This document shows, piece by piece, positions 1,435 through 20,855 of a stretch of 30,031 bases of DNA (the first letter of the stretch is position 1; every line of letters begins with the position of its first letter). Source of the DNA: a virus. The stretch lies in the IMG/VR virus record IMGVR_UViG_3300036466_000122, positions 1-30,031 of that record; one strand, 5' to 3'. Below the pieces are notes generated by a model that made no database searches, was not told the origin of the DNA, and worked only from the letters and a program-made list of their open reading frames with translations. Made by a program: the position numbers and the translations under genes.

Positions 1435-2306
1435 TCATCTTTATTGTATAGGGCTAATACATCTTCTGTGAATAGCTCTGTATTCCCTGAGTCTAATACA
1501 GGTTTTCCTGTATATTTGTGCTTTTTATACTGTTTTAGAAGTTTTTGTTCTAATTCATAAGCATCTTTACCTAACTCAAACTCCTCTTGCTTAACTATTT
1601 CTATCTTTTGTAGATCTTTTAAACCGAATCTTTCATTTACTGAGCGATTTGTTATACCTATTTTGTATAATGTTCTATTATCCTCAGTTGTTATTTTTAA
1701 GTAATACAATATTGCAGGTTTTGTACTATCAAATCCTGTTTTAGCACAACTTTGACATCCTTTTCCTTCTAAGTGGTTTTTTGCCATTTGCTCAAATTCT
1801 CCATGTATAGGACAAATGATTTTAACTTTGCTATCAGTATTAGTATATTTTATTTTAGAATAATTATACTTATTACCATGTATTTTAGAAACTTTTGTTA
1901 AAAATTCTTTTAATTCTATTTTACGATTACCGCTACAACTGGGACAACCTTTTCCATATAAATGATTATTTGCTTTTTGCTTAAATTCTCCATGATCACA
2001 ACAAGTTATAATTACTGTATCATGACTCCCTGTGTATACTGTATTATTATACATGTACTTATTGTTGTGTATTTTATTAGCTTTGCTAATAAAATCATTT
2101 GTTGTTATTTTCATAACACCTGCACAGAAAGAACATCCTCTGCCTGATAAGTGTCCACTAGGAGTCTGTTCAAAGTCGCCATGCTTAGGGCATGTAATGA
2201 TGACTTTATCTTTACAACCAATATAAATGACTTTATTATAATTGTACTTTTTACCATGTACTGCTTTAGCTTCTTCAATCCATTCAGTAGTTGTTTTCTT
2301 AGCCAT
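1431..2306 (-). CDS. GIY-YIG (T5orf172-like) endonuclease with three Cys/His zinc-binding repeats
   Basis: Residues 1-190 hold three repeats of about 60 residues. Each runs from an IHGxKYxY segment through VxIxCxxHGxFxQ to HLxGxGCxxC; the C-H...C-C spacing indicates one zinc per repeat (DUF723-like). Residues about 198-285 carry a GIY-YIG-type nuclease core: ILYYLKI, then YKIGIT, the NRSVNERF arginine, a DAYELEQ glutamate and an SGNTELF asparagine. Similar phage proteins are free-standing homing endonucleases or T5orf172-type nucleases, with the repeats binding DNA. The start is set by AAGGAG seven bases upstream, located inside the ribbon-helix-helix gene. Selfish mobility is the likely role; a host-DNA or rival-phage target is possible. 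Confidence 0.75.
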   Translation of the reverse strand: MAKKTTTEWIEEAKAVHGKKYNYNKVIYIGCKDKVIITCPKHGDFEQTPSGHLSGRGCSFCAGVMKITTNDFISKANKIHNNKYMYNNTVYTGSHDTVIITCCDHGEFKQKANNHLYGKGCPSCSGNRKIELKEFLTKVSKIHGNKYNYSKIKYTNTDSKVKIICPIHGEFEQMAKNHLEGKGCQSCAKTGFDSTKPAILYYLKITTEDNRTLYKIGITNRSVNERFGLKDLQKIEIVKQEEFELGKDAYELEQKLLKQYKKHKYTGKPVLDSGNTELFTEDVLALYNKDD

Positions 2307-2478
2307 TTTTTAACTCCTTTTTAAGAAGTTGTTTAATAGCTTCATTTACGAATTCTGATTGACTAACATATTTAAGTGACTTATCATCATTAACTTGTTT
2401 TAAGTAATCTTTCATTTGTTTGAGTAGGTCTGCTTTAATTGTCATTCCTACCCTAACTGGTTTATTTTGTTTATACAT
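2299..2478 (-). CDS. Ribbon-helix-helix (CopG/Arc-type) DNA-binding protein (59 aa)
   Basis: An ATG on the minus strand at 2478 opens 59 codons, ending TAA at 2299-2301 inside the start of the endonuclease gene. Residues 5-13 (NKPVRVGMT) form the DNA-contacting beta strand, residues 15-29 the first helix, and residues 39-56 (VSQSEFVNEAIKQLLKK) the second. The S-x-F/Y-V-x-E-A-I pattern is typical of ribbon-helix-helix proteins, which dimerise to bind palindromic operators. AAAGGAAAG precedes the start. The out-of-frame overlap with the nuclease gene implies coupled expression, so it probably represses this two-gene unit. An antitoxin role is a less likely alternative. Confidence 0.75.
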   Translation of the reverse strand: MYKQNKPVRVGMTIKADLLKQMKDYLKQVNDDKSLKYVSQSEFVNEAIKQLLKKELKNG

Positions 2479-2493
2479 ATACTTTCCTTTAAG

Positions 2494-2511
2494 TTTAGTA
2501 TACGTATTTTA
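2494..2511 (-). promoter_or_regulatory. Candidate operator/promoter upstream of the ribbon-helix-helix gene
   Basis: The 44-base gap upstream of the ribbon-helix-helix gene contains the overlapping palindromes GTATAC (2498-2503) and ATACGTAT (2500-2507), flanked on both sides by TTTAG. The minus strand reads TATGCTAAAAT just upstream, usable as a -10-like element. A small palindrome directly before an autoregulating ribbon-helix-helix gene is the expected operator layout. This rests on position and symmetry only; no binding data exist. Confidence 0.35.
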
Positions 2512-2522
2512 GCATAATTTTC

Positions 2523-5500
2523 TTAATTTATTCTGAAGATACTCCCTAAATCAGGTATAAGGTCAAATATATTTGGTTGTAAGATTTGCTCTGGAGCATC
2601 ATCTAACAACCATCTATAACTTACACCATCTATCCCAGTTCTTAGGTAAGTATCTATTGGATCTTGGAAATCTATTCCAGTTAACTGTTGGGCACCTTGC
2701 ATTAACGCAGTTCTGGTTGGATTTTTCTTTGTCATACTCATAATTGCTTTTGCTTGACTTAAGTAATATTTCATAAAGAATAACCCACCAACTCTCTCAG
2801 CGTACTTCCACCACCTATTCATGGTATAACCATAGTTTACTAGTAACTGGTCTAAGTAGTTAAGTATTTCTCTTTCTACACTTGCTGTCACTTCTCCATC
2901 TCTTTTTATAGCTTTTGCTTCCAACTCTTCTTTTATTATTTGTCTTGTTATGGCATCCCCATAATGTACTGTTTTTAACATTGTATTATAGAAAGCACTT
3001 GTTCTATTTATATACAACCCATTCTTTACTGTATCTACAACTCCTAACCAATTCTTTTTATCTAAGTAGTCTTTTGCCATAGTCATTAACTGACCTTCTC
3101 CTTGACCATCTATATTTATGTCTTCCACTAACGCAGTATATTGACCATCTTTCACCAATTCATCCCACACATTACCTTCTAACTGTTTTTTCAACTGATT
3201 CATTTTTCTATTAACATTCTCACCAGCCATTTTCTTAACTTCTAACTCAGCTAATTGTTGAGATTTCTCATTATAATCATTTAACTGTTGCCATCTTTCT
3301 TTGAACTTTTTAGTATACTTTATTGGATTTATACCATGAGTTATTGCTACTATTACATTTGATGTTTGGTTACCCAACAATACATCTGCATTTAGTACTA
3401 CCATTGCATTCTTTACATAACCAAGTATCTCAGCAAGATATGATTCTAAAGCCATAAGTCTTGCTTTTGCAACTGGATATTTTTTAATGTCTATACCAAA
3501 CTTAGCAAAATTGCCAATTGTTACATCTTTTTCACCAGTCATTAACTCCACAAAATCTTTATGTATTAATATACCTTTATTCTTAGTTTTTTGGAATATG
3601 TAGTCTTTTGTATGGTCTGGTAAGTATTCCCATCTATCATGTCTTTTCTCACGCTTCACACCATTCATTTTATCTTCTTCAGTATACTCTTCAACTAACA
3701 CATATTCATCTGGCTTTTCTAACACTCCTTGAGCACTATTTTCTATTATTGTATCAACAACTCGTTTATTTTCTGTCGCTGTTAATGTAGTTTTAATTGA
3801 TCTACTAAACGTATGACTTAACACATCCTCTAACCCAGTTTTTCTATCAGGTAAGTGTATTTCTTTTTCTAGTTTATTTAGTTGTATTCTATAATCAACT
3901 ATCTTATTTTGATGGTCATATACTGGCACTAATGTTTGACCTTTACCCATCTTAAACTTTCCAGCAACATTTTCATCACTACTACTAATCGCATTTATAA
4001 TGTTCTTAGTTTTTCTTTTTAACTCACCATCCATTAATTCAACTTTACCGGCTAATTCATTATTTTTACGAATTAGTGCACTTACAGGAATACCTTCTGT
4101 TGTATGTGATATTAACCCAATAGCACCCTCATTGAACCCTACTGATTTAGTTCTACCAGTCATTAAGTAATATTTTTTATTTTCTACTATTACATAAGGC
4201 TTTTCTTCTACTAAGTCCATAAGTACACTTTGTTGAGCTTTCACTTCTTCTTCTGGAATTAACTCATATTTTATTAAGCCATCTTCTGCTCTTATATACC
4301 CTTTTGGTACTGGGTCATATGCCCCAAGTGTAGCATCTAATCTCATATTATCTATGTACCCTCGATACATTGTTATTGTTTTATTTAGTAAGTCATTATC
4401 TAATTTACTTATTAGTTCTAACTGTGTAGCATCACTATTTTTTAAGACTTTTAAAGACACCAACTTATCAACGAGTTTTACAAGTTCTTTATTAGCATTT
4501 TTATGTTTTTTCTTATCAACATATAATTCACTAATAATATTATTAGCATTTATTTGTTGATTATATGTTGTGGTTTTACCCGACACTAAATATTCTGCTA
4601 ATCCATCTATTTGTTCCATCATTGCTTTATTTGCCTTATCCAACTTAATTATTTGTTTAACATCTGTCATTCCTTCTGGACTTGCTAATATTTGCTTCTG
4701 CAAAGACTCTATTTTAGCATCAACTTTTGACCCATCTAACATATATTCTTTTAACTCTTCTGCAGTAAACTGTGCTAAATCACCTTCAAGTATTACTCTT
4801 GTAACAGCATTTTTTGTATCTTCATCAACACCTTCATACATTTCTGTTGCAACTGCTTGCACACCATTTCTTATATCTGATGTATGTTTTTCTATTACTT
4901 GTTTAGCATGTCTAAATATCATATACATATCTGCTACATCATTTGATGTAGTATCTTGTGTTACCATTCTCCATAAGTATTGACTAATCCCAGTTTCTAC
5001 TAAGTCATTTAGTAATGGAACCTTTTTGATATGGTTTGCTAACCACTTAGCATTTGCTTTTGCACTTAATTTTTCATTCCACTCTTCAACTTTATCTGTT
5101 ACTGGCTTTAGTGCTTCATCTAGCTGGTTTATTTTACCTTTGGCATATCCTGATATACCTTCTGGGTCTTCTTCAGCTTTCCAATCTTTTTGTGCTTTCT
5201 CTGCATCTAGCTTAGCTATTGTATGTACCATATCAGCTATCATCTTACCACCAGTCTCACCTCTACCACTTAACAATCTCCATACATAATTAACTACTTT
5301 TATTAGTTTATTTAAAACTTTTTTCATAGGTGACTTTTTAGTTGGATCCATCTCTAAGGCTTTTATTAATGGTGTACTTATTTTTATATCTTTTATTGCA
5401 TTATACACATTTTCATTTGTTGTTGCATATGCATAAAACTCTTCAGCATTTGCCGTTTTATCAAATGTGTACTCAAACTTCATCTTAGCTATTTCTACTT

Positions 5501-7349
5501 CTTCTACTGTTGGGTTTTGAATACCTTCTAAGAACAACTCATAAGTTACACCACTTGCTATAGCACTATCTCTTAAGTCTTCCATTAGTCTTCTTAGTTT
5601 GATATTATCTTTGAATACATGACTTGACATTAAGTGATTTATTTCATGTAGGAACACTTCACTTACTCTACTTAGTCTACTCATTTTATTCCATCTAATA
5701 TGCATTTCTTTTGTACGCAAATCTATTTGTCCTGCTGTGTTATCTACCATATTTTCAAACATCCTCAACTTCACATTACCTGTTCCCAAGTCTTGCATTG
5801 TTTGTTGGTAGGTATCTACAACTGTATTTTGTAGGTCAGCAAACTCTTGTGTTTGTATTGGTCTACCTTCTTGAACATCTGCTTCATAGTACGCTGCAAA
5901 GTCATCTGCTAACACTTGTCCCAAGTCTATTTCTTCTTGACCCAAGAACACATCTGCTTTAGTATCTCCTATTCCGGTATTTTCATCACTACCTTTACTA
6001 ATTTTATCAGATTCTCTATATTTTTTTACTAAGTCTCTTACTTTATCTGTCATCAGTGTGCTTTTATCACTTTGAGCTTCTATTATTGCAGCAAACCCAT
6101 CCATTGTGAACTCTAACAAATTGTTTTTTACTTTTTTACTTAATCCTAGCATATCTAGTAGAGAGTTCATTAAGTCTCTTAACATATTACTTAACTTACC
6201 TTTGTTATTAGTTTCAATTTGACTTAATGCATTCATTAATCCAGGATTACTTAGTGCTTCAGCCACAAATTCATCTTTATTAGCTTGCCAACGAGTTGTT
6301 ATTATATCTCCTTGATTAACCAGGCTTTGTATATCATCTTTTTTAGACATTGCCTCATTGTATAACTCTTCTACTCTTTTAACTGCAGGGTGCTTTGGAT
6401 TATCTTTAATAAACCTAGCAGAACCAGCATGAATTAGTTCATGTGTTAGTACATGACTTCCTCTAACTTTTTCAACTGCATCTAGTATTCTTTCTATTGC
6501 CTTTGCTTTATTAGCTCCAACAAACTCAACTAATTTGTCCATATTAGTATTATTTGGATTTTTATTAATGTATAATTGAATTAATGCAGTTTCTGCTACA
6601 TTATCAATTTCTTCTTTAATAGGCTCTTTTGCAATTTGCAAAGTGTGGGTATCTAAGTTATAGTCTCCAACTACTATATTATCTTCATGTACCTTACTTA
6701 GCATTAACCCTGCAACATCTGTAACTATTTTTGGATCAACTAATTTTTCTATTATATTTCCTAATGCTCCTGAGTATCTATCGTGTCCATACACTCCTTT
6801 TGGTGCACTATCTGTATACCTTTTCCATGCAGATGTATCATTTAATTTACTTGCTCTTTCATCTTCCAATTTTACAGCCATTTGTCTTGTTTCACTTACT
6901 CTTTGTGCTCTATTATAAGCTTCTTCAGTAAGGTAAACATTACTTACAGTGTTCCATTGCCCTTCATTAGCACTTACTTGATCTGCAGTAATTCTTGAAG
7001 CAGGAAGTTTATACTCCTTTTCATTATTTGGGTATTTAACTGTGTATATTAATTTACCAGAGGCTGTTCTAACTCCATTTAACACTTTAATGTTTACTTT
7101 ATTGTCTTTTGGGTTATTGTTATTTAGCTCATTTATAAACATTGAATCTACTGTTTCATAGTTTGTTTGGACTATATTTTCAGGCTTTCTGTATATAATA
7201 GCCCTCATATTATCCATAGCTTCTTGGATATCTAGTATATTATTTTCCAAGTCATCTTCGAACCCTTGTTTTTGTAGGTCAGCAAGTCTTTTGTATTCGA
7301 CTTTTGCTGCTTCTACTATTTGTTTTTGTTGTTGTATACTACAAACCAT
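2523..7349 (-). CDS. Giant internal virion/ejection protein with two HExxH metallopeptidase motifs (1608 aa)
   Basis: I do not recognise a named family. Two zincin-type motifs are visible: HELIH at residues 303-307, followed by a KDEFVAEALS segment, and HEINH at 568-572, followed by NAEEFYAYAT. In each the downstream E-F-x-A could supply the third zinc-ligand glutamate, so the N-terminal third looks like two related metallopeptidase domains. After about residue 730 come long charged helical stretches, and near the C-terminus a more hydrophobic region. The size and the position directly after the virion RNA polymerase gene (11-base overlap, different frame) suggest a packaged protein injected with the DNA. 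Proteolysis of the capsid, cell wall or host proteins are alternative roles. GGAG precedes the start. Confidence 0.6.
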   Translation of the reverse strand: MVCSIQQQKQIVEAAKVEYKRLADLQKQGFEDDLENNILDIQEAMDNMRAIIYRKPENIVQTNYETVDSMFINELNNNNPKDNKVNIKVLNGVRTASGKLIYTVKYPNNEKEYKLPASRITADQVSANEGQWNTVSNVYLTEEAYNRAQRVSETRQMAVKLEDERASKLNDTSAWKRYTDSAPKGVYGHDRYSGALGNIIEKLVDPKIVTDVAGLMLSKVHEDNIVVGDYNLDTHTLQIAKEPIKEEIDNVAETALIQLYINKNPNNTNMDKLVEFVGANKAKAIERILDAVEKVRGSHVLTHELIHAGSARFIKDNPKHPAVKRVEELYNEAMSKKDDIQSLVNQGDIITTRWQANKDEFVAEALSNPGLMNALSQIETNNKGKLSNMLRDLMNSLLDMLGLSKKVKNNLLEFTMDGFAAIIEAQSDKSTLMTDKVRDLVKKYRESDKISKGSDENTGIGDTKADVFLGQEEIDLGQVLADDFAAYYEADVQEGRPIQTQEFADLQNTVVDTYQQTMQDLGTGNVKLRMFENMVDNTAGQIDLRTKEMHIRWNKMSRLSRVSEVFLHEINHLMSSHVFKDNIKLRRLMEDLRDSAIASGVTYELFLEGIQNPTVEEVEIAKMKFEYTFDKTANAEEFYAYATTNENVYNAIKDIKISTPLIKALEMDPTKKSPMKKVLNKLIKVVNYVWRLLSGRGETGGKMIADMVHTIAKLDAEKAQKDWKAEEDPEGISGYAKGKINQLDEALKPVTDKVEEWNEKLSAKANAKWLANHIKKVPLLNDLVETGISQYLWRMVTQDTTSNDVADMYMIFRHAKQVIEKHTSDIRNGVQAVATEMYEGVDEDTKNAVTRVILEGDLAQFTAEELKEYMLDGSKVDAKIESLQKQILASPEGMTDVKQIIKLDKANKAMMEQIDGLAEYLVSGKTTTYNQQINANNIISELYVDKKKHKNANKELVKLVDKLVSLKVLKNSDATQLELISKLDNDLLNKTITMYRGYIDNMRLDATLGAYDPVPKGYIRAEDGLIKYELIPEEEVKAQQSVLMDLVEEKPYVIVENKKYYLMTGRTKSVGFNEGAIGLISHTTEGIPVSALIRKNNELAGKVELMDGELKRKTKNIINAISSSDENVAGKFKMGKGQTLVPVYDHQNKIVDYRIQLNKLEKEIHLPDRKTGLEDVLSHTFSRSIKTTLTATENKRVVDTIIENSAQGVLEKPDEYVLVEEYTEEDKMNGVKREKRHDRWEYLPDHTKDYIFQKTKNKGILIHKDFVELMTGEKDVTIGNFAKFGIDIKKYPVAKARLMALESYLAEILGYVKNAMVVLNADVLLGNQTSNVIVAITHGINPIKYTKKFKERWQQLNDYNEKSQQLAELEVKKMAGENVNRKMNQLKKQLEGNVWDELVKDGQYTALVEDINIDGQGEGQLMTMAKDYLDKKNWLGVVDTVKNGLYINRTSAFYNTMLKTVHYGDAITRQIIKEELEAKAIKRDGEVTASVEREILNYLDQLLVNYGYTMNRWWKYAERVGGLFFMKYYLSQAKAIMSMTKKNPTRTALMQGAQQLTGIDFQDPIDTYLRTGIDGVSYRWLLDDAPEQILQPNIFDLIPDLGSIFRIN

Positions 7350-14696: not shown

Positions 14697-15899
14697 TTAT
14701 TTTAAATCGTACCAACCAGTCCAGTTGAACCAATCATTTTCATGACCATATTTTGCTGTTAAGTAAGCTAGTAATTCTTTCTTATCTCCAGTGCTCATAT
14801 TATCTAAAGAACCTTTATTTTTAGACATATAATCTCTTGCAGCATCTAATCCATCAGGTCCAGCTGCAGTGTATAACTGTTCACCAAAACTAAACCCTTT
14901 ACCTGAGCTACTTTTACCAAAGTACCCAGATTTTATTTTAGCTTCAAGTTCTTTGTCTTTTCTAGACTGTTCTTTTACATCAAGTAAATATTTAAGTTCA
15001 TCTAATTGTTCTTTTTGACTTTTAGGAGCATTTATTTTATTAGCAACTTCTAAGGCCATTGTTGATGGTATTGAACCTTCATTAGCTAATCTTCTGATTA
15101 AATCAAGTTTACCCTGTTTTATTTCAGTATCACTTAAATCTTTCATTGAGGTTTTAGTAACTTCTTTACTTATTTTTGGTAATTTGTCTTCAGCGACAGT
15201 AAATTCTTTACCAACCATATTATCAGATAAACCTGCTTTTTCTAATGCTAACTTATGAGCTTGTGAGATATCAGCTTGAGTTAATTCTGGTGTAGTTGGT
15301 GTTTGACTTGAACCACCATACATTTGTTCTTTTACAGCATTATCTAAACTTGTTAAAGGATTCTGTAAGGTATTAGAGATACTATCGAATGTAACTGGTT
15401 TACCTTTATATGTTAACAGTGAGCTATTATCTGTAGATACTGGTTGAACATTTGCAACAGCCTTTGACTGCTCTTCTGGTATTATAGGAGCAGTTAATCT
15501 TGCAAATTCTTTTGCATATGTGTCACCTGCAGTTTCGTACTGAGTATTCAACATACTATTTCTTGCAGAGTTCACATCTGCTTGTGTAACACCAGGACTT
15601 ACTACACTAGTAGACGACTTTTGTGTAGGTAACTTCATTAATTCACTGGCTAATAACTCTTTACCAGCTCTTTCTTGGTTTAATCTATTTTGTTCTTGTA
15701 ATTTCAAATCGAACAACTGTTGACCTTGTTGAGCTTCTTGTTTTTTTAAATTAAGTAACAAATTATTTCTATCTTGTTCTTGGATTTGAGCAGACAACTT
15801 TCCAGGTACTTGTAAACCTTGCATTATTAAGTTCGCACCAGTCCCTAAGTTTGGACTTGCCAGCCCACTATAACGAAATCTTGATTCTGGAAGTGCCAT
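14697..15899 (-). CDS. Internal virion (ejection) protein, N4 gp51 position, 400 aa
   Basis: This is probably one of the proteins packed inside the head and released with the DNA. It is rich in Gln, Lys, Ser and Thr and largely helical, with a glutamine-rich coiled-coil region around residues 35-75 and low-complexity segments up to about residue 210. A second helical region with many lysines lies near 250-320, followed by a glycine/serine-rich FGKSSSGKGFSFG segment. The C-terminal end is tryptophan-rich (NDWFNWTGWYDLK). There is no signal peptide. It starts in a TAATG overlap with the 191-residue gene and sits directly before the RNA polymerase gene, matching the place of N4 gp51. The role comes from synteny and composition, not from a recognised domain. 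Confidence 0.55.
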   Translation of the reverse strand: MALPESRFRYSGLASPNLGTGANLIMQGLQVPGKLSAQIQEQDRNNLLLNLKKQEAQQGQQLFDLKLQEQNRLNQERAGKELLASELMKLPTQKSSTSVVSPGVTQADVNSARNSMLNTQYETAGDTYAKEFARLTAPIIPEEQSKAVANVQPVSTDNSSLLTYKGKPVTFDSISNTLQNPLTSLDNAVKEQMYGGSSQTPTTPELTQADISQAHKLALEKAGLSDNMVGKEFTVAEDKLPKISKEVTKTSMKDLSDTEIKQGKLDLIRRLANEGSIPSTMALEVANKINAPKSQKEQLDELKYLLDVKEQSRKDKELEAKIKSGYFGKSSSGKGFSFGEQLYTAAGPDGLDAARDYMSKNKGSLDNMSTGDKKELLAYLTAKYGHENDWFNWTGWYDLK

Positions 15900-16474
15900 T
15901 ATCTCACCGCCTTTCCAGCTTGAATCTTTCTGTCAATATTGCCAGTTCGTTCAACTTGTCTATCATAAGCATCTTTTGCCATGTTATATTGTTTAGTTAA
16001 CATATCTTTATCAAACGCAAATTTGTCTTTTGCTAAGCCTAATTGTTTATTACCAAGATATATGCCAGCCACACCACTTGCCAAATTACCAATTTGCCCA
16101 AGACCTTGTAATGTACCCTTATTAAACCCAAAACCATCAGCACCAAACACATCCCCAAACATACTAGTATTTGATTTATCAACCAATCCACCTGTTTTGG
16201 AATCTAATACAGACCAATTATCTCCTGTTCCAGCATATTGCTTGTTATCACCATATCCAGCAGTACCAACAATTCCTCCTGGAGTAAAATCCATAGCATT
16301 ACTAGAAGTAATGAACTTACCATCTGGGCTATATCCTGTGTATGTTATATTACCCAAGCCTTTATTGACATTTGGAGAGTTAAACACTGAAGGCACATTT
16401 GTGACTTTAGCCTCACTAATAGTATTATTAGTACTTAGTCCAGGAAATTGTTTATTTGTATAATTAAACTCCAT
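15899..16474 (-). CDS. T7 gp14-like internal virion protein, N4 gp52 position, 191 aa
   Basis: The N-terminal 110 residues are Gly/Asn/Thr-rich and probably extended. Residues about 115-140 form a glycine-rich hydrophobic segment (GQIGNLASGVAGIYLG) that could insert into a membrane. This is followed by a helix rich in Lys, Asp and Phe, LGLAKDKFAFDKDMLTKQYN, ending in a basic tail (NIDRKIQAGKAVR). This glycine-patch-then-amphipathic-helix design resembles T7 gp14-type channel proteins, which are ejected into the outer membrane during DNA entry. AGGAG precedes the start. The stop shares a base with the next start (TAATG). The family call is tentative. Confidence 0.5.
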   Translation of the reverse strand: MEFNYTNKQFPGLSTNNTISEAKVTNVPSVFNSPNVNKGLGNITYTGYSPDGKFITSSNAMDFTPGGIVGTAGYGDNKQYAGTGDNWSVLDSKTGGLVDKSNTSMFGDVFGADGFGFNKGTLQGLGQIGNLASGVAGIYLGNKQLGLAKDKFAFDKDMLTKQYNMAKDAYDRQVERTGNIDRKIQAGKAVR

Positions 16475-16530: not shown

Positions 16531-18711
16531 TTATGTTCCCATACCAGATATAACATTACTATTTATTTCAATGCCATAAGCAATTTGCAGTTCATAATCT
16601 GATAAGTTATCTACATTAGTAACAACCATAGAATCAACATACTGTTCTGTACTTCTAAACATTGGTGATGGTACTCCAGCATAAGACATCGTATTTATTA
16701 TTGAAGGATCATTTGACAATTCTGCTAATTTCTCTTTAAAATAATTTATGTCTTCTGACATAGTATCATACATCACTTGAGCATCACTAAGTATTTGTTC
16801 TGTCTGGTCATTTATGTATTGTCTATAAGTACTTAAACCTGTTTCTGCAAACTGGAACCAAGTCCCAGCTGCACCAAAGTCAAGTTTTATTGTTCCTGTG
16901 CTGTACCCAACATATGCCGCAACTGCTGCTGCAACTATAGCACCAGCTGCACCACCTATTTTTTCAGCTATCATTCCAATAATTTCACTTATTGCATACA
17001 TAACTATTGCAGTACCAACATATAGCACCAGATAATACATGGTCAAGGTCAATACTGTATCTAACACTGCTGCAGCGGTAGCCGCAAATCCTATTAGTGC
17101 CGAACTTAATGCTGAACTTGCACCCCAGGAAAATACTAGTAGTACAACCGCAACTATTTTTAATATTACACCAAACGCTGCTGTTTCATACCACTTAACT
17201 TCAACCACTTCTAAACTAAATGCTAGCATACACAAGCTATGTTCGTAAATGTACACAAACTCTTTATATCTTAAGTTGTTTAATATATCCAATGGAATTA
17301 TTAGTCTACCATATCCTCCAGTACTATCTAAATATGCAGTTAAAGAATTACCACTCACTGTATAAGTTTGTTTATAGTTACTTACTGTAATCTCTTGATA
17401 TTCAGTTAAACTTGCCTGCCATCTAAGAGTCCAAGTCCTGCCTGCTCCTGCTGTACCCCCAACTGTTTTTGTATAAGTACCAACTGACCCAATACTGCCT
17501 GTTATAGTAGACCTCGCCATAGTAAAAGCATATCTCATTGATAATTTACTCATATTAATCACAATATCCCCAGTATCTGGTGATAATAGGTCAAAGAACT
17601 GAAATGTTACTTTATTACCTATTGGACTATTATTTTGAACATCAAGTCCAGTAAGTAGATATGAGCTATCCATATCAGGATTTTCTACACTAGTTCTTAA
17701 CTGTTCACCGCTTAAGTTTAATCTTCTAAGCATTCTATCAAGATTTCTACCATTTAAGTCAACCATTACATTATTTTCTTTTAATGGTATAATTGCAGTC
17801 ATGTTTATTGTTTTAGTATTGTAAATAGCACTAATTGTGTCAGCAACTGCTACCCAATACCTAGTCTCTATACCAACTTCTCCACTTGTTACTGAATAAC
17901 TAGCATAACTAGCTTCTGTACCATATGCTGTATTTGTTACTATGTAAGTTTTTAGTTCTATAGGTGTTAATATTGTTTCATCAGGTAAACTTGGAACAGT
18001 AGGACCAACATGTGTACACACTGTTTCATATTCATCATTAATATTCACAGTTTCACTTAATGCACCAACCAAATACTGTTCACCTGTTATATATATATAA
18101 GTACCATCATAACCATAGTTATTTGTTAGATTTTCTATTATAGTTTCACTATACTCTCTAATCATATTTAAGCTAACTTGATTTGAAGGAGTGCCATTAC
18201 TGTAAGTTATTAATTTATAAATTTTACCCGTATCTGTAACCAGTCCAGTTGTAAAGTCATATCCTGATAAGTTAGTTAAGGCATGATTTCCTTTTTCATT
18301 TAGTGTTAAGTATCTATCACCATAGTCAATTACTTGTACATTACCATATCCATATAAACTTTCCAAGTAAGTCTCTAGTTGTTCTTTAACTACTATTCTT
18401 GCTTGAGCAGTGCTACTTGGGTTGTACCCCAAGTTCTCTAGAAACTTTTGGCTATACTTTTTACGATAGTCTCTTTGGAATGTTTTATATGCATCAAAGT
18501 AAGCATCTACATCGCCTTCACTATCTCTACGAGCAGTTTTTCTAGCATTAGGTTCAGCTACACCAGGAGTGAGTAGGTTTGTTATCTGTATGTCTGTAAA
18601 TGTCTCATTATGAGTGTATACACCAAAAGCTCTTAGTACTGCAGTAACACCAATTGCATCAGCTATAAAACCTAAAGGTCCGTCTATAGGATCTACTATT
18701 CCTCCACCCAT
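16531..18711 (-). CDS. Large virion protein with a long hydrophobic domain (726 aa)
   Basis: I do not recognise the family. The N-terminus begins MGGGIVDPIDGP. Residues about 70-110 are charged and helical (DAYFDAYKTFQRDYRKKYSQ). Residues about 110-500 look beta-rich, with many Tyr, Thr and Ser as in tail or baseplate proteins. Residues about 508-607 form a strikingly hydrophobic, Ala/Gly/Val-rich region with several potential membrane helices, and the last 100 residues return to a soluble helical form. By position it corresponds to the N4 gp53 area, between tail and ejection genes. A tail or neck protein that enters or perforates the envelope is a reasonable inference. GGAG precedes the start and lies within the last codons of the ketosynthase gene, so the two are coupled. 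Confidence 0.5.
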   Translation of the reverse strand: MGGGIVDPIDGPLGFIADAIGVTAVLRAFGVYTHNETFTDIQITNLLTPGVAEPNARKTARRDSEGDVDAYFDAYKTFQRDYRKKYSQKFLENLGYNPSSTAQARIVVKEQLETYLESLYGYGNVQVIDYGDRYLTLNEKGNHALTNLSGYDFTTGLVTDTGKIYKLITYSNGTPSNQVSLNMIREYSETIIENLTNNYGYDGTYIYITGEQYLVGALSETVNINDEYETVCTHVGPTVPSLPDETILTPIELKTYIVTNTAYGTEASYASYSVTSGEVGIETRYWVAVADTISAIYNTKTINMTAIIPLKENNVMVDLNGRNLDRMLRRLNLSGEQLRTSVENPDMDSSYLLTGLDVQNNSPIGNKVTFQFFDLLSPDTGDIVINMSKLSMRYAFTMARSTITGSIGSVGTYTKTVGGTAGAGRTWTLRWQASLTEYQEITVSNYKQTYTVSGNSLTAYLDSTGGYGRLIIPLDILNNLRYKEFVYIYEHSLCMLAFSLEVVEVKWYETAAFGVILKIVAVVLLVFSWGASSALSSALIGFAATAAAVLDTVLTLTMYYLVLYVGTAIVMYAISEIIGMIAEKIGGAAGAIVAAAVAAYVGYSTGTIKLDFGAAGTWFQFAETGLSTYRQYINDQTEQILSDAQVMYDTMSEDINYFKEKLAELSNDPSIINTMSYAGVPSPMFRSTEQYVDSMVVTNVDNLSDYELQIAYGIEINSNVISGMGT

Positions 18712-18712
18712 G

Positions 18713-19534
18713 TTACTTCTCCACTATACAGCTTCCATAGAAACCGCCTAATCCACTAGAAACACATAAAACTCTACCTTTTACATCTGAATCTAGTACC
18801 ATACATACTTCAATTAATCCACTTGCACCTTGGCAATGACCAATCTCTTCTTTGAACCTTAACTGCTGTCTTCCAGAGGTAAGCAATTGTTCAGCAGATT
18901 CATTATTTTCAGTTCCTGTTCCGTGAGGTTTTACAATATCACATGAACTAAATACAGTGCTATAGCCTTCTTGAGTTACACCAAAAGGATTTCGGTCATA
19001 ACTGTAAGCCCACTTACAATTAGTTATGTCTGAACCTTCTCTACTTAGGTGTATTATAGACATACCTTGACCTAATTTTAAGTCAATTCTACTTTCTTCA
19101 AATACTCTTAATGTATTATAACTAGTACGTTCTTCAGCTACAATCACAATCTCGTCAAAACCTTTTTCAAATAAGTCTTGAGCTTCATATAAACTATACA
19201 TACTACTAGCACAAGTATTAGCATTTATACTAGCAAAAGATATTTTATCTCTATCAGATAACATACCTATCCATTTATGCATACAGTATGCACTAGATTC
19301 TTTTATAGCCGTAGAACTATGTATTGGTTGAACTGCAATATTAGAATCAAATTGTTCTACATATCTAGTTTCACTACTTGGTATGGTAGCTCCACCCACA
19401 TATAAAAAAGCACATTTTCCAGTTAATTTTAAGTTCTTCAGGTAGTCTTTACATAACTTTATATGTTCTTGTGTCATATATCCATCAGACTTTATATCAG
19501 GATTAATAAAGTACTTATAACTATTTACTTTCAT
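18713..19534 (-). CDS. Short beta-ketoacyl-ACP synthase (ketosynthase) with complete Cys-His-His triad
   Basis: This enzyme should condense an acyl thioester with a malonyl-type extender on an acyl carrier protein. The nucleophile loop reads INANTCASS with Cys108, followed by the expected helix and strand (FDEIVIVAEE). The first histidine is in VKPHGTGTENNESAE (His204), matching the HGTGT motif of KAS I/II and polyketide ketosynthases. The second is in IGHCQGASGL (His233), and the end reads GLGGFYGSCIV like the usual GFGGxN tail. At 273 residues it is far shorter than the roughly 410 of FabB/FabF, with loops missing on both sides of the triad. AAGGACTACTA inside the carrier-protein gene is its ribosome-binding site. 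A non-catalytic homologue is unlikely, since all three residues are kept. Confidence 0.85.
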   Translation of the reverse strand: MKVNSYKYFINPDIKSDGYMTQEHIKLCKDYLKNLKLTGKCAFLYVGGATIPSSETRYVEQFDSNIAVQPIHSSTAIKESSAYCMHKWIGMLSDRDKISFASINANTCASSMYSLYEAQDLFEKGFDEIVIVAEERTSYNTLRVFEESRIDLKLGQGMSIIHLSREGSDITNCKWAYSYDRNPFGVTQEGYSTVFSSCDIVKPHGTGTENNESAEQLLTSGRQQLRFKEEIGHCQGASGLIEVCMVLDSDVKGRVLCVSSGLGGFYGSCIVEK

Positions 19535-19751
19535 CTAGTAGTCCTTGAATATCTCTTGGAGTTATGTTAGGATAATTTACTTTTCCAAGCTCTTTTTTAT
19601 CCCATAAGTTATATTTATCATTTATTGCCATAATAATCATAGTTATACCAAAACTATCTACACCAGATGACATAATTGTATCATCGGCAGTTATTGGTTC
19701 ACCATGTTCTTCTTCTATCAATTCATTGATTTCTTCAAGAAGTTTCTCCAT
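19521..19751 (-). CDS. Acyl carrier protein with DSFG phosphopantetheine site (76 aa)
   Basis: This 76-residue protein has the size, acidity and four-helix layout of acyl carrier proteins. Helix I is MEKLLEEINELIEEE. A loop then leads to SSGVDSFG, where Ser33 is the expected 4'-phosphopantetheine attachment residue (Ser36 in E. coli AcpP). The following recognition helix is TMIIMAINDKYNL, and residues 58-75 form the last helix. AAAGGACTACT precedes the start, inside the end of the GNAT-like gene. The gene overlaps the ketosynthase by 14 bases. It is probably charged by the host phosphopantetheinyl transferase, as none is seen here. An aminoacyl or peptidyl carrier protein is a possible alternative. 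Confidence 0.85.
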   Translation of the reverse strand: MEKLLEEINELIEEEHGEPITADDTIMSSGVDSFGITMIIMAINDKYNLWDKKELGKVNYPNITPRDIQGLLDESK

Positions 19752-20220
19752 AGTAGTCCTTTATTTTATTGAAAAGTTTTTCAACTTTATTTTTAGATTC
19801 CACTGATATTGTACCTATATTACCTTTAAATTCTATTAGAGACATGTTTTGGAACACTCTTTTTTGTTCATTCAGTTCTGTTTGAAATATACTATCAGCA
19901 TATCTATTATGTAGTGCACATAGTACAAAGTACATAAGTATACCTAGAACTTCCGGGTCTTTAGCATTGCTAATTATATATGTTATGAAATTAGGTCCAC
20001 CAGCGTAACAAGCTACAGCTCCAGTAGCATTTTCAATAACCAAAGTTTCTTTGTGCTCTATATGGTATTTTAACATTTTTAACAGTGTTCTTTTATGCAT
20101 TTCTTGCATACTTTCAGATTCATTATAGTCTACAATTACAGGCATAAGTAAAATATTCATAGACTCCAGATCATTCAAAGTAGCTCTACGAACTACTTTA
20201 TCTCCAAATTGTGCTAACAT
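19735..20220 (-). CDS. GNAT-like acyltransferase, or T7 gp13-type internal protein with GNAT fold (161 aa)
   Basis: The N-terminus reads VVRRATLNDLESMNILL, the usual first strand and helix of GNAT N-acyltransferases. A central strand pair (ETLVIENATGAVACYAGG) and a long helix with ILMYFVLCALHNRYAD follow in the expected order. The pyrophosphate-binding Q/RxxGxG/A loop is not obvious, so catalytic activity is uncertain. GNAT-like proteins occur in this part of podovirus genomes, where T7 gp13-type internal virion proteins also resemble GNATs. Some GNAT enzymes use acyl-ACP as donor, and the overlap with the carrier-protein gene makes that attractive here. It starts in a TAATG overlap with the upstream tail-type gene; GGAG precedes the start. 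Confidence 0.55.
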   Translation of the reverse strand: MLAQFGDKVVRRATLNDLESMNILLMPVIVDYNESESMQEMHKRTLLKMLKYHIEHKETLVIENATGAVACYAGGPNFITYIISNAKDPEVLGILMYFVLCALHNRYADSIFQTELNEQKRVFQNMSLIEFKGNIGTISVESKNKVEKLFNKIKDYYGETS

Positions 20221-20855
20221 TACACTAACTCCGGACCTTCAGTACCTTCTTGTACTCCAGGTGCTGTAGTTTCATCAGCCAGCATAAGACTTGAACCTTT
20301 TCCAAGGATTTTATTATATACATCATTAACATTAGAACTAAGAGCAATATTAAGAACATCAGGATCTGTTGCATCTTGGAATACCATACTATTGTATCTT
20401 AACTGAGAATCAAATAATTTTTGAAACTTATTATCATCAAAAGCTTCTTTTTGTCTTTCATAAAGTGCTTCTTGTGCTCTAAGTACACCAAGTTGTTGAC
20501 TATTGGTTTTTCTTTGTAATAGAAACTTAATAGACTCACTAACAATTGTTGGTACAACACCAACATATACAGTAGCAACATCTGAAGCTTTTAATCTTTG
20601 TGCTTTGTATTGTGCAGTTATATGAGCATTTAAAGTTTCCATGATATCATCAAATACACCGTCACCAGTTACTACGTAATTAGCATCTGTAGAAACATTA
20701 GATGTTAACTCTTCTATTGATATTGTTGTATCGTCTATGATTCTATATTCTAATAATGTAGTATTGGTGTATGGAGGTGCATCTGTAGTAGAAGCCCAAG
20801 CTCCCCAAGGATCTGTATCAACTGCTCTTATTCTTTTTTCAACTGTTATTGCCAT
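20220..20855 (-). CDS. Neck/tail-tube-type structural protein, N4 gp54 position (211 aa)
   Basis: This is most likely part of the neck or short tail. The N-terminal 60 residues look beta-rich (AITVEKRIRAV, TTLLEYRIIDD, TISIEELTSN). A mostly helical region follows between residues 60 and 170, with long amphipathic helices such as VLRAQEALYERQKEAFDD. The end is acidic and disordered-looking (PGVQEGTEGPELV). There is no signal peptide or membrane helix. Gene order, two genes downstream of the major capsid protein, corresponds to N4 gene 54, whose product forms the tail tube. The assignment rests on synteny; I cannot see a diagnostic motif. AAAGGA precedes the start. Confidence 0.5.
   Translation of the reverse strand: MAITVEKRIRAVDTDPWGAWASTTDAPPYTNTTLLEYRIIDDTTISIEELTSNVSTDANYVVTGDGVFDDIMETLNAHITAQYKAQRLKASDVATVYVGVVPTIVSESIKFLLQRKTNSQQLGVLRAQEALYERQKEAFDDNKFQKLFDSQLRYNSMVFQDATDPDVLNIALSSNVNDVYNKILGKGSSLMLADETTAPGVQEGTEGPELV

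Follow-up and report, generated by a model that had tools for sequence, protein, structure and literature searches.

We found that a fragment of an N4-like phage genome encodes, inside its head/tail operon, an acyl carrier protein (ACP) and a ketosynthase (KS) that, as judged from their sequences, form a real pair with intact active sites. The cassette to which they belong is conserved and under selection, and it is linked to a particular type of N-terminus in the virion protein encoded next. This link, between the cassette and a hydrophobic or amphipathic N-terminus on the protein encoded after it, is new here. We propose that the cassette is a virion-protein acylation module, in which an acyl chain carried by the phage ACP and shaped by the KS would be moved by a GNAT-like partner to a plug or ejection protein; we give this reading close to an even chance.

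Genome setting of the cassette

The window (the whole stretch of DNA that was analysed, a virus record of 30,031 bases) is a fragment of an N4-like (Schitoviridae-type) genome. Its N4-type membership was established by a portal protein (phrog_1216), a major head protein (phrog_1357) and a virion RNA polymerase (vRNAP, phrog_2206); a tape-measure-type protein (phrog_2120), an endolysin and holins are also encoded. On the minus strand the genes run in the order portal, tape-measure type, head protein, 204-aa protein, 211-aa protein (gp54 type), cassette, 726-aa protein (gp53 type), 191-aa protein, 400-aa protein and vRNAP, which is the order of N4 gp59–gp50 with the cassette placed between gp54 and gp53 (Table 1). 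In N4, the tail tube is formed by gp54 and the tail plug by gp53, gp52 (outer-membrane channel) and gp51 (periplasmic tunnel) both insert into membranes, and gp50 is the ejected polymerase (PMC12633501). The first-pass annotation had put the cassette between a tail-type gene and a large virion protein. Both flanks were confirmed by family matches, and the placement can now be given more sharply: the cassette separates the tail-tube gene from the tail-plug gene and lies next to the genes of the membrane-channel ejection proteins.

Two further features of the window were noted. The vRNAP is encoded by two ORFs that overlap by 11 nt, and the break lies near the boundary between the polymerase and the C-terminal domain, since the two ORFs cover successive parts of phrog_2206 (Table 1). 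A homing-endonuclease-like gene of the T5orf172/DUF723 type (1431–2306) adjoins the vRNAP.

Table 1. Coordinates of the cassette and of neighbouring genes in the window
Feature	Position	Strand	Basis
211-aa virion protein, N4 gp54 (tail tube) type, upstream of the cassette	20220..20855	-	phrog_2050 (virion structural), E 1.7e-20
First cassette gene, 161 aa, GNAT-like by position and predicted element order only	19735..20220	-	ORF call
Acyl carrier protein (ACP), 76 aa, phosphopantetheine site Ser33 in VDSFG	19521..19751	-	PF00550
Compact KAS I/II-type ketosynthase (KS), 273 aa, Cys108-His204-Lys228-His233	18713..19534	-	PF02801; family profile; KS tree
Plug gene, codons 1-37, encoding the additional hydrophobic N-terminus MGGGIVDPIDGPLGFIADAIGVTAVLRAFG...	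18601..18711	-	missing from cassette-free homologues
726-aa virion protein, N4 gp53 (tail plug) type, candidate acyl acceptor	16531..18711	-	phrog_2220, E 2.2e-27; hydrophobic internal segments
191-aa protein, N4 gp52 position (outer-membrane channel ejection protein)	15899..16474	-	gene order gp54-cassette-gp53-191 aa-gp51-vRNAP; phrog_18869 (family with no assigned function)
400-aa protein, N4 gp51 position (periplasmic tunnel ejection protein)	14697..15899	-	position; no family match
Virion RNA polymerase, N-terminal and polymerase half, 2432 aa	7339..14637	-	phrog_2206 positions 1056-1980, E 1.9e-42
Virion RNA polymerase, C-terminal half, 1608 aa (split gene)	2523..7349	-	phrog_2206 positions 1927-3378, E 2.6e-78

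The three cassette genes of the window

The cassette had been described as three overlapping genes at 18713–20220, coding for a GNAT-like protein, an ACP with a DSFG site and a KS with Cys108, His204 and His233. All three ORFs lie where they had been placed, on the minus strand; they overlap by 17 nt (first gene and ACP) and 14 nt (ACP and KS), and each is preceded by a purine-rich ribosome-binding site. The ACP assignment was borne out by a match to PF00550 (E 1.8e-4, 22.1 bits, curated cut-off 20.8) and by the D-S-[FL] motif at the phosphopantetheine serine (V-D-S33-F-G). Several relatives of the ACP score just under the same cut-off. The KS assignment likewise stood: PF02801 matches at E 3e-4 (21.2 bits, curated cut-off 20.8), and Cys108, His204, Lys228 and His233 align with the KAS I/II tetrad, so that the arrangement is Cys-His-His with the conserved Lys and not the Cys-His-Asn of KAS III. 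PF00109 does not match the window KS in the Pfam profile test; one of its relatives (L111) gives strong matches to both PF00109 and PF02801.

For the first gene, the assignment as a GNAT is unproven. Its product matched nothing in Pfam, PHROG or NCBIfam, and a phmmer search of the PDB returned just two matches, both GNATs, at E 0.7–0.9. The AF2 model was poor (pLDDT 50) and gave no significant fold match. Furthermore, the small gene precedes the ACP gene in the window, unlike in relatives, where the third gene comes after the KS. Both the unproven label and this order count against the acylation reading. Shuffled alignments and profile comparison between the first protein and the third genes of relatives gave nothing significant; homology between them was therefore rejected and is not claimed.

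The ACP–KS family recurs in many viral contigs

When the KS, ACP and first protein of the window were used as queries, no close relative was found in IMG/VR or phage records, and the KS family was uncovered only by a scan with a small KS alignment. By this alignment-based scan, KS relatives are encoded in at least 466 IMG/VR contigs, near-duplicates included. An ACP gene lies directly upstream of 86 of the 88 KS genes examined, mostly with a 4-nt overlap, and the remaining two KS genes start within 26 nt of a contig edge. All 69 distinct KS sequences retain the full KAS I/II tetrad (Cys, His, Lys, His); because a sequence had to match one of two motifs to be picked up by the scan, and these motifs include the Cys or the first His, the invariance of these two residues is partly built in, whereas that of Lys228 and His233 is not. 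Among the ACPs, the DS motif is invariant in 64 of 64 distinct sequences. The best PDB matches of the KS family profile are FabF enzymes (E 2e-17). In close pairs, dN/dS was 0.015–0.12 for KS, ACP and the third gene (GNAT), which shows purifying selection on all three in the relatives. A pattern scan of approximately 85,000 bacterial and archaeal genomes returned only two loci of the KS family, and the family thus looks phage-borne.

The pair resembles FabF/FabB (KAS I/II) with AcpP, or a minimal polyketide KS–ACP, in joining a Cys-His-Lys-His KS with its ACP. It differs from them in that the KS of N4-like phages is shortened to 273–290 aa and sits in a virion operon, and in that the cassette has no KSbeta, KR, MAT or PPTase. 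No accessory enzymes had been visible to the first-pass annotation, and we could extend this to 21 related records, some of which may be fragments: none contained a PPTase (PF01648), malonyl transferase (PF00698) or ketoreductase (PF13561), and the positive controls were detected. A fabG-acpP-fabF set from a roseobacter prophage (PMC8224337) was set aside as a precedent, given that its order is that of a bacterial fab operon and that its virion context is not given. We found no paper linking a phage ketosynthase to virion genes in the open-access literature, a scope that leaves subscription papers and preprints largely outside.

The cassette occupies the same place in two unrelated podovirus contexts

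Three settings of the family were distinguished. In setting A, comprising N4-like phages, the order is gp54-type gene, ACP, KS, a third gene of about 160 aa and gp53-type plug, and the KS sequences form a single clade in the KS tree (100/100). Setting B consists of other podoviruses, including MW202545 (from a spring), with the order tail/virion structural gene, ACP, KS, a third gene of about 155 aa and a large virion protein. The two are unrelated podovirus contexts, and in both the cassette lies between tail and ejection genes. Setting C is a clade nested inside B, in which ACP and KS lie beside an SNF2 helicase gene, away from virion genes and with no third gene or GNAT; this argues against a role tied strictly to the virion, if only in this derived group. 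Small conserved ORFs were also seen next to ACP–KS in setting-C contigs (L148, L161, L122 and others).

The cassette is missing from the closest relatives of the window and hence appears to come and go; a search with the KS alignment over the nearest relatives, mostly fragments, gave no match. In a set of N4-like contigs found through the portal gene, KS was present at three of the 21 loci that reach the slot, two of these being the same phage. A lone KS of the N4-type clade was observed among tail- and lysis-like genes on a contig binned as a Sulfurospirillum MAG (L168, 7917–8819), and no ACP was found beside it.

The first-pass annotation had made the joint retention of the three genes in related phages a test of its proposal. 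The arrangement withstood this test, with the ACP–KS pairing and the active sites retained; the gene order differs, with the third gene following the KS in relatives. A third gene accompanies the ACP in settings A and B, and the KS is dispensable in two cultured phages described below.

The third gene and the slot between tail and plug

The third gene of setting B was modelled with high confidence (AF2 pLDDT 92.7) and has a clear GNAT fold. The top 50 Foldseek matches are all GNATs, as are all 50 of the matches listed by VIA-align, the best of them with a Z of 11.4 and an rmsd of 2.8 over 125 residues. The third gene of setting A is a separate family with no database match. No Pfam match to the HlyC/CdiC toxin-activating acyltransferases, or to any acyltransferase family, was obtained for the third genes.

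In the cultured Alteromonas schitoviruses R22Y and V19, an ACP gene is followed by a third gene of the setting-A family, and KS is absent. The ACP is thus paired with the third gene, and these two form the core to which the KS is an addition. Like the ACPs of complete cassettes, the R22Y ACP lies in the slot between the gp54-type and gp53-type genes, carries a DSL site and precedes a setting-A third gene; it differs in having no KS at its locus. It was published as a metabolic helper gene, its partner and position unremarked (PMC11705849). The R22Y locus (PP212876, L170, 23774–24554) thus has a published ‘auxiliary metabolic’ ACP in the plug slot beside a conserved unnamed partner.

Other genes were also observed in this slot. 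Another N4-like contig (L016, 11423–12373) has a radical SAM enzyme there (PF04055, E 2e-11), which suggests that the slot takes different protein-modifying enzymes. GNAT-like genes, single or paired, occupy it without ACP or KS in two contigs (L022, 19244–20708; L035, 17838–18338). Three records, OQ594354, OL906435 and PP438419, are each exactly 65,014 bases long and give identical matches under different host names, and may be one sequence deposited under several names.

A similar arrangement is found in T7 (gp13) and in cobaviruses (pc40), where a GNAT-type gene directly precedes the genes for ejection/internal virion proteins, with no ACP or KS (PMC6775973). The phage cassettes share with them a GNAT-type gene just ahead of such proteins. 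In the ACP/KS-free podoviruses that we checked, with an acetyltransferase-annotated or GNAT-like gene in the slot, the next protein lacks the amphipathic N-terminal segment, unlike at the cassette loci.

The virion protein after the cassette has a distinctive N-terminus

In setting A, each plug that follows a cassette begins with an extra hydrophobic or amphipathic segment, e.g. MSAVVKFVKDVVDVVVEAVVAIW or MGGLVNSILDTLSDIVDAVAGLV; the plug of the window starts with the hydrophobic sequence MGGGIVDPIDGPLGFIADAIGVTAVLRAF. Sixteen plug homologues from cassette-free loci, N4 gp53 (MGLFSSKTK...) among them, do not have the segment and begin with the core at once. In setting B, the protein encoded after the third gene is unrelated to the plug and begins in a like style (MGGVVSAVASVVSDVVETVGDAV). 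In both settings, the virion protein directly downstream of the cassette starts with M-[G/S/A/P] followed by a hydrophobic or amphipathic segment.

Profiles built on the first 60 residues recovered each other's proteins. With the B profile, the top seven of 1,162 N-termini were cassette-positive plugs, and with the A profile, ranks 1–15 of 730 were genes right after a cassette and all 16 such genes fell within the top 18. Good scores with the B profile were obtained for seven of the 14 cassette-positive plugs; the window plug does not score (E 9.8), and neither do six of the other 13. All 30 proteins have G, S, A or P at residue 2, compared with 43% of background genes, and 20 of the 30 have G, compared with 5%. 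Hydropathy of the first 50 residues separates the 14 cassette-positive from the 16 cassette-free plugs with p = 6e-6 when relatedness is ignored, and all of these N-terminus statistics are inflated by shared ancestry among the contigs. The association favours attachment of an acyl chain to a virion protein over attachment to a lipid, two options that the first-pass annotation had offered side by side.

Two candidate acceptors were rejected. An N-terminal glycine does not discriminate, since cassette-free plugs also start with MG, and a conserved N-terminal lysine is excluded by several segments that have no lysine. Because the segment has no conserved lysine, the N-terminal amine is our leading guess for the acceptor, but N-terminal Gly is common in cassette-free plugs as well. 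These two observations weigh against the acylation reading, as do the cassette-positive plugs that fail to score with the B profile.

A proposed role and its alternatives

On the acylation reading, host enzymes would place phosphopantetheine and an acyl or malonyl group on the phage ACP, and the KS of the phage, a compact enzyme of the KAS I/II type, would extend or select the acyl chain there. The small third protein, which has a GNAT fold in the non-N4 lineage, would take the chain over from acyl-ACP and attach it to the virion protein whose gene comes directly after the cassette. In the window phage the acceptor would be the gp53-type tail plug, most likely at its hydrophobic N-terminus, and we infer that the lipid-bearing N-terminus may aid the plug/ejection apparatus in engaging the host envelope at DNA delivery, comparable to the part played by myristoylated capsid proteins of some animal viruses and by acylated CdiA when bacteria compete.

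By analogy, the cassette can be compared with the HlyC/ApxC family and with CdiC of class IV contact-dependent inhibition, where a small acyltransferase gene adjoins the gene of its protein substrate, acyl-ACP is used and the acylated protein acts on the target-cell membrane (PMC8510554); in the phage, such a transfer is proposed. CdiC, a homologue of the RTX acyltransferases that use acyl-ACP, acylates CdiA and thereby aids target recognition (PMC8510554). A membrane-facing use of the acyl chain would fit the plug/ejection context together with this CdiC–CdiA precedent. The bacterial systems rely on the ACP of the host, with neither an ACP nor a KS dedicated to the task, whereas the phage cassette has its own. 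The phage third genes, in turn, have no sequence match to an acyltransferase family, and the candidate acceptor has no conserved lysine.

Alternatively, the cassette could make a small acylated molecule or alter host lipids (an acyl-amino acid, a homoserine-lactone-like signal, lipid A or a phospholipid), for example in signalling or superinfection exclusion, with its place in the operon reflecting late expression only. ACP together with GNAT-fold enzymes that produce acyl-homoserine lactones or N-acyl amino acids is well known, the KS and ACP appear to be intact enzymes, and the KS clade beside the helicase is remote from virion genes. Such a product would, however, leave unexplained both the shared style of N-terminus after the cassette in two unrelated settings and the absence of the segment from cassette-free plugs, and further biosynthetic genes were not found in the 21 related records. 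We consider this explanation unlikely, though far from negligible. The same genomic association with the N-terminal segment would be expected if an acyl chain made or held by ACP–KS bound the hydrophobic plug N-terminus non-covalently, as a ligand or chaperone, while the virion is assembled. The lack of a conserved nucleophile in the segment agrees with this, but the clear GNAT fold of the third gene in one lineage points to transfer chemistry, and we give a purely non-covalent role a slight chance.

The relationship of the KS to FabF, and the publication of the R22Y ACP as an auxiliary metabolic gene (PMC11705849), would suit an auxiliary metabolic role, the one proposed for that ACP, in which the cassette supplies host fatty-acid synthesis in infected cells. 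This is improbable in view of its position among late virion genes, the two isolates that retain ACP and third gene with KS absent, the failure to find other fatty-acid enzymes in the 21 records and the phage-type distribution of the family (two loci in the pattern scan of bacterial and archaeal genomes). Finally, the ACP and KS folds may have been reused as structural or chaperone parts for which catalysis is unneeded. Both genes lie between structural genes, and ACP bearing phosphopantetheine is known to play a structural part in other complexes. Nevertheless, none of the distinct sequences examined has lost a catalytic residue or the phosphopantetheine serine. Such conservation would be unnecessary for parts with a purely structural role, and we regard this explanation as highly improbable.

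Implications for virion maturation and DNA delivery

It is possible, although on balance doubtful, that several podovirus lineages have a dedicated acyl-ACP pathway, with its own ACP, KS and GNAT-fold transferase, that serves only to attach a lipid to the N-terminus of a membrane-penetrating virion protein. The cultured phages R22Y and V19, with ACP and partner, make the acylation idea directly testable. The acylation reading would relabel phage ACP and KS genes from ‘auxiliary metabolic gene’ to ‘virion maturation’, and would bear on the counting of virome ACP and KS genes as host-metabolism genes. Myristoylated capsid or penetration proteins exist in some animal viruses, and the pathway, if real, would be their phage counterpart and would make lipidation a novel post-translational step of virion maturation. 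If an ejection protein of a short-tailed phage were lipidated by the phage itself, this would add a new element to DNA delivery, in the way such proteins get into and across the envelope.
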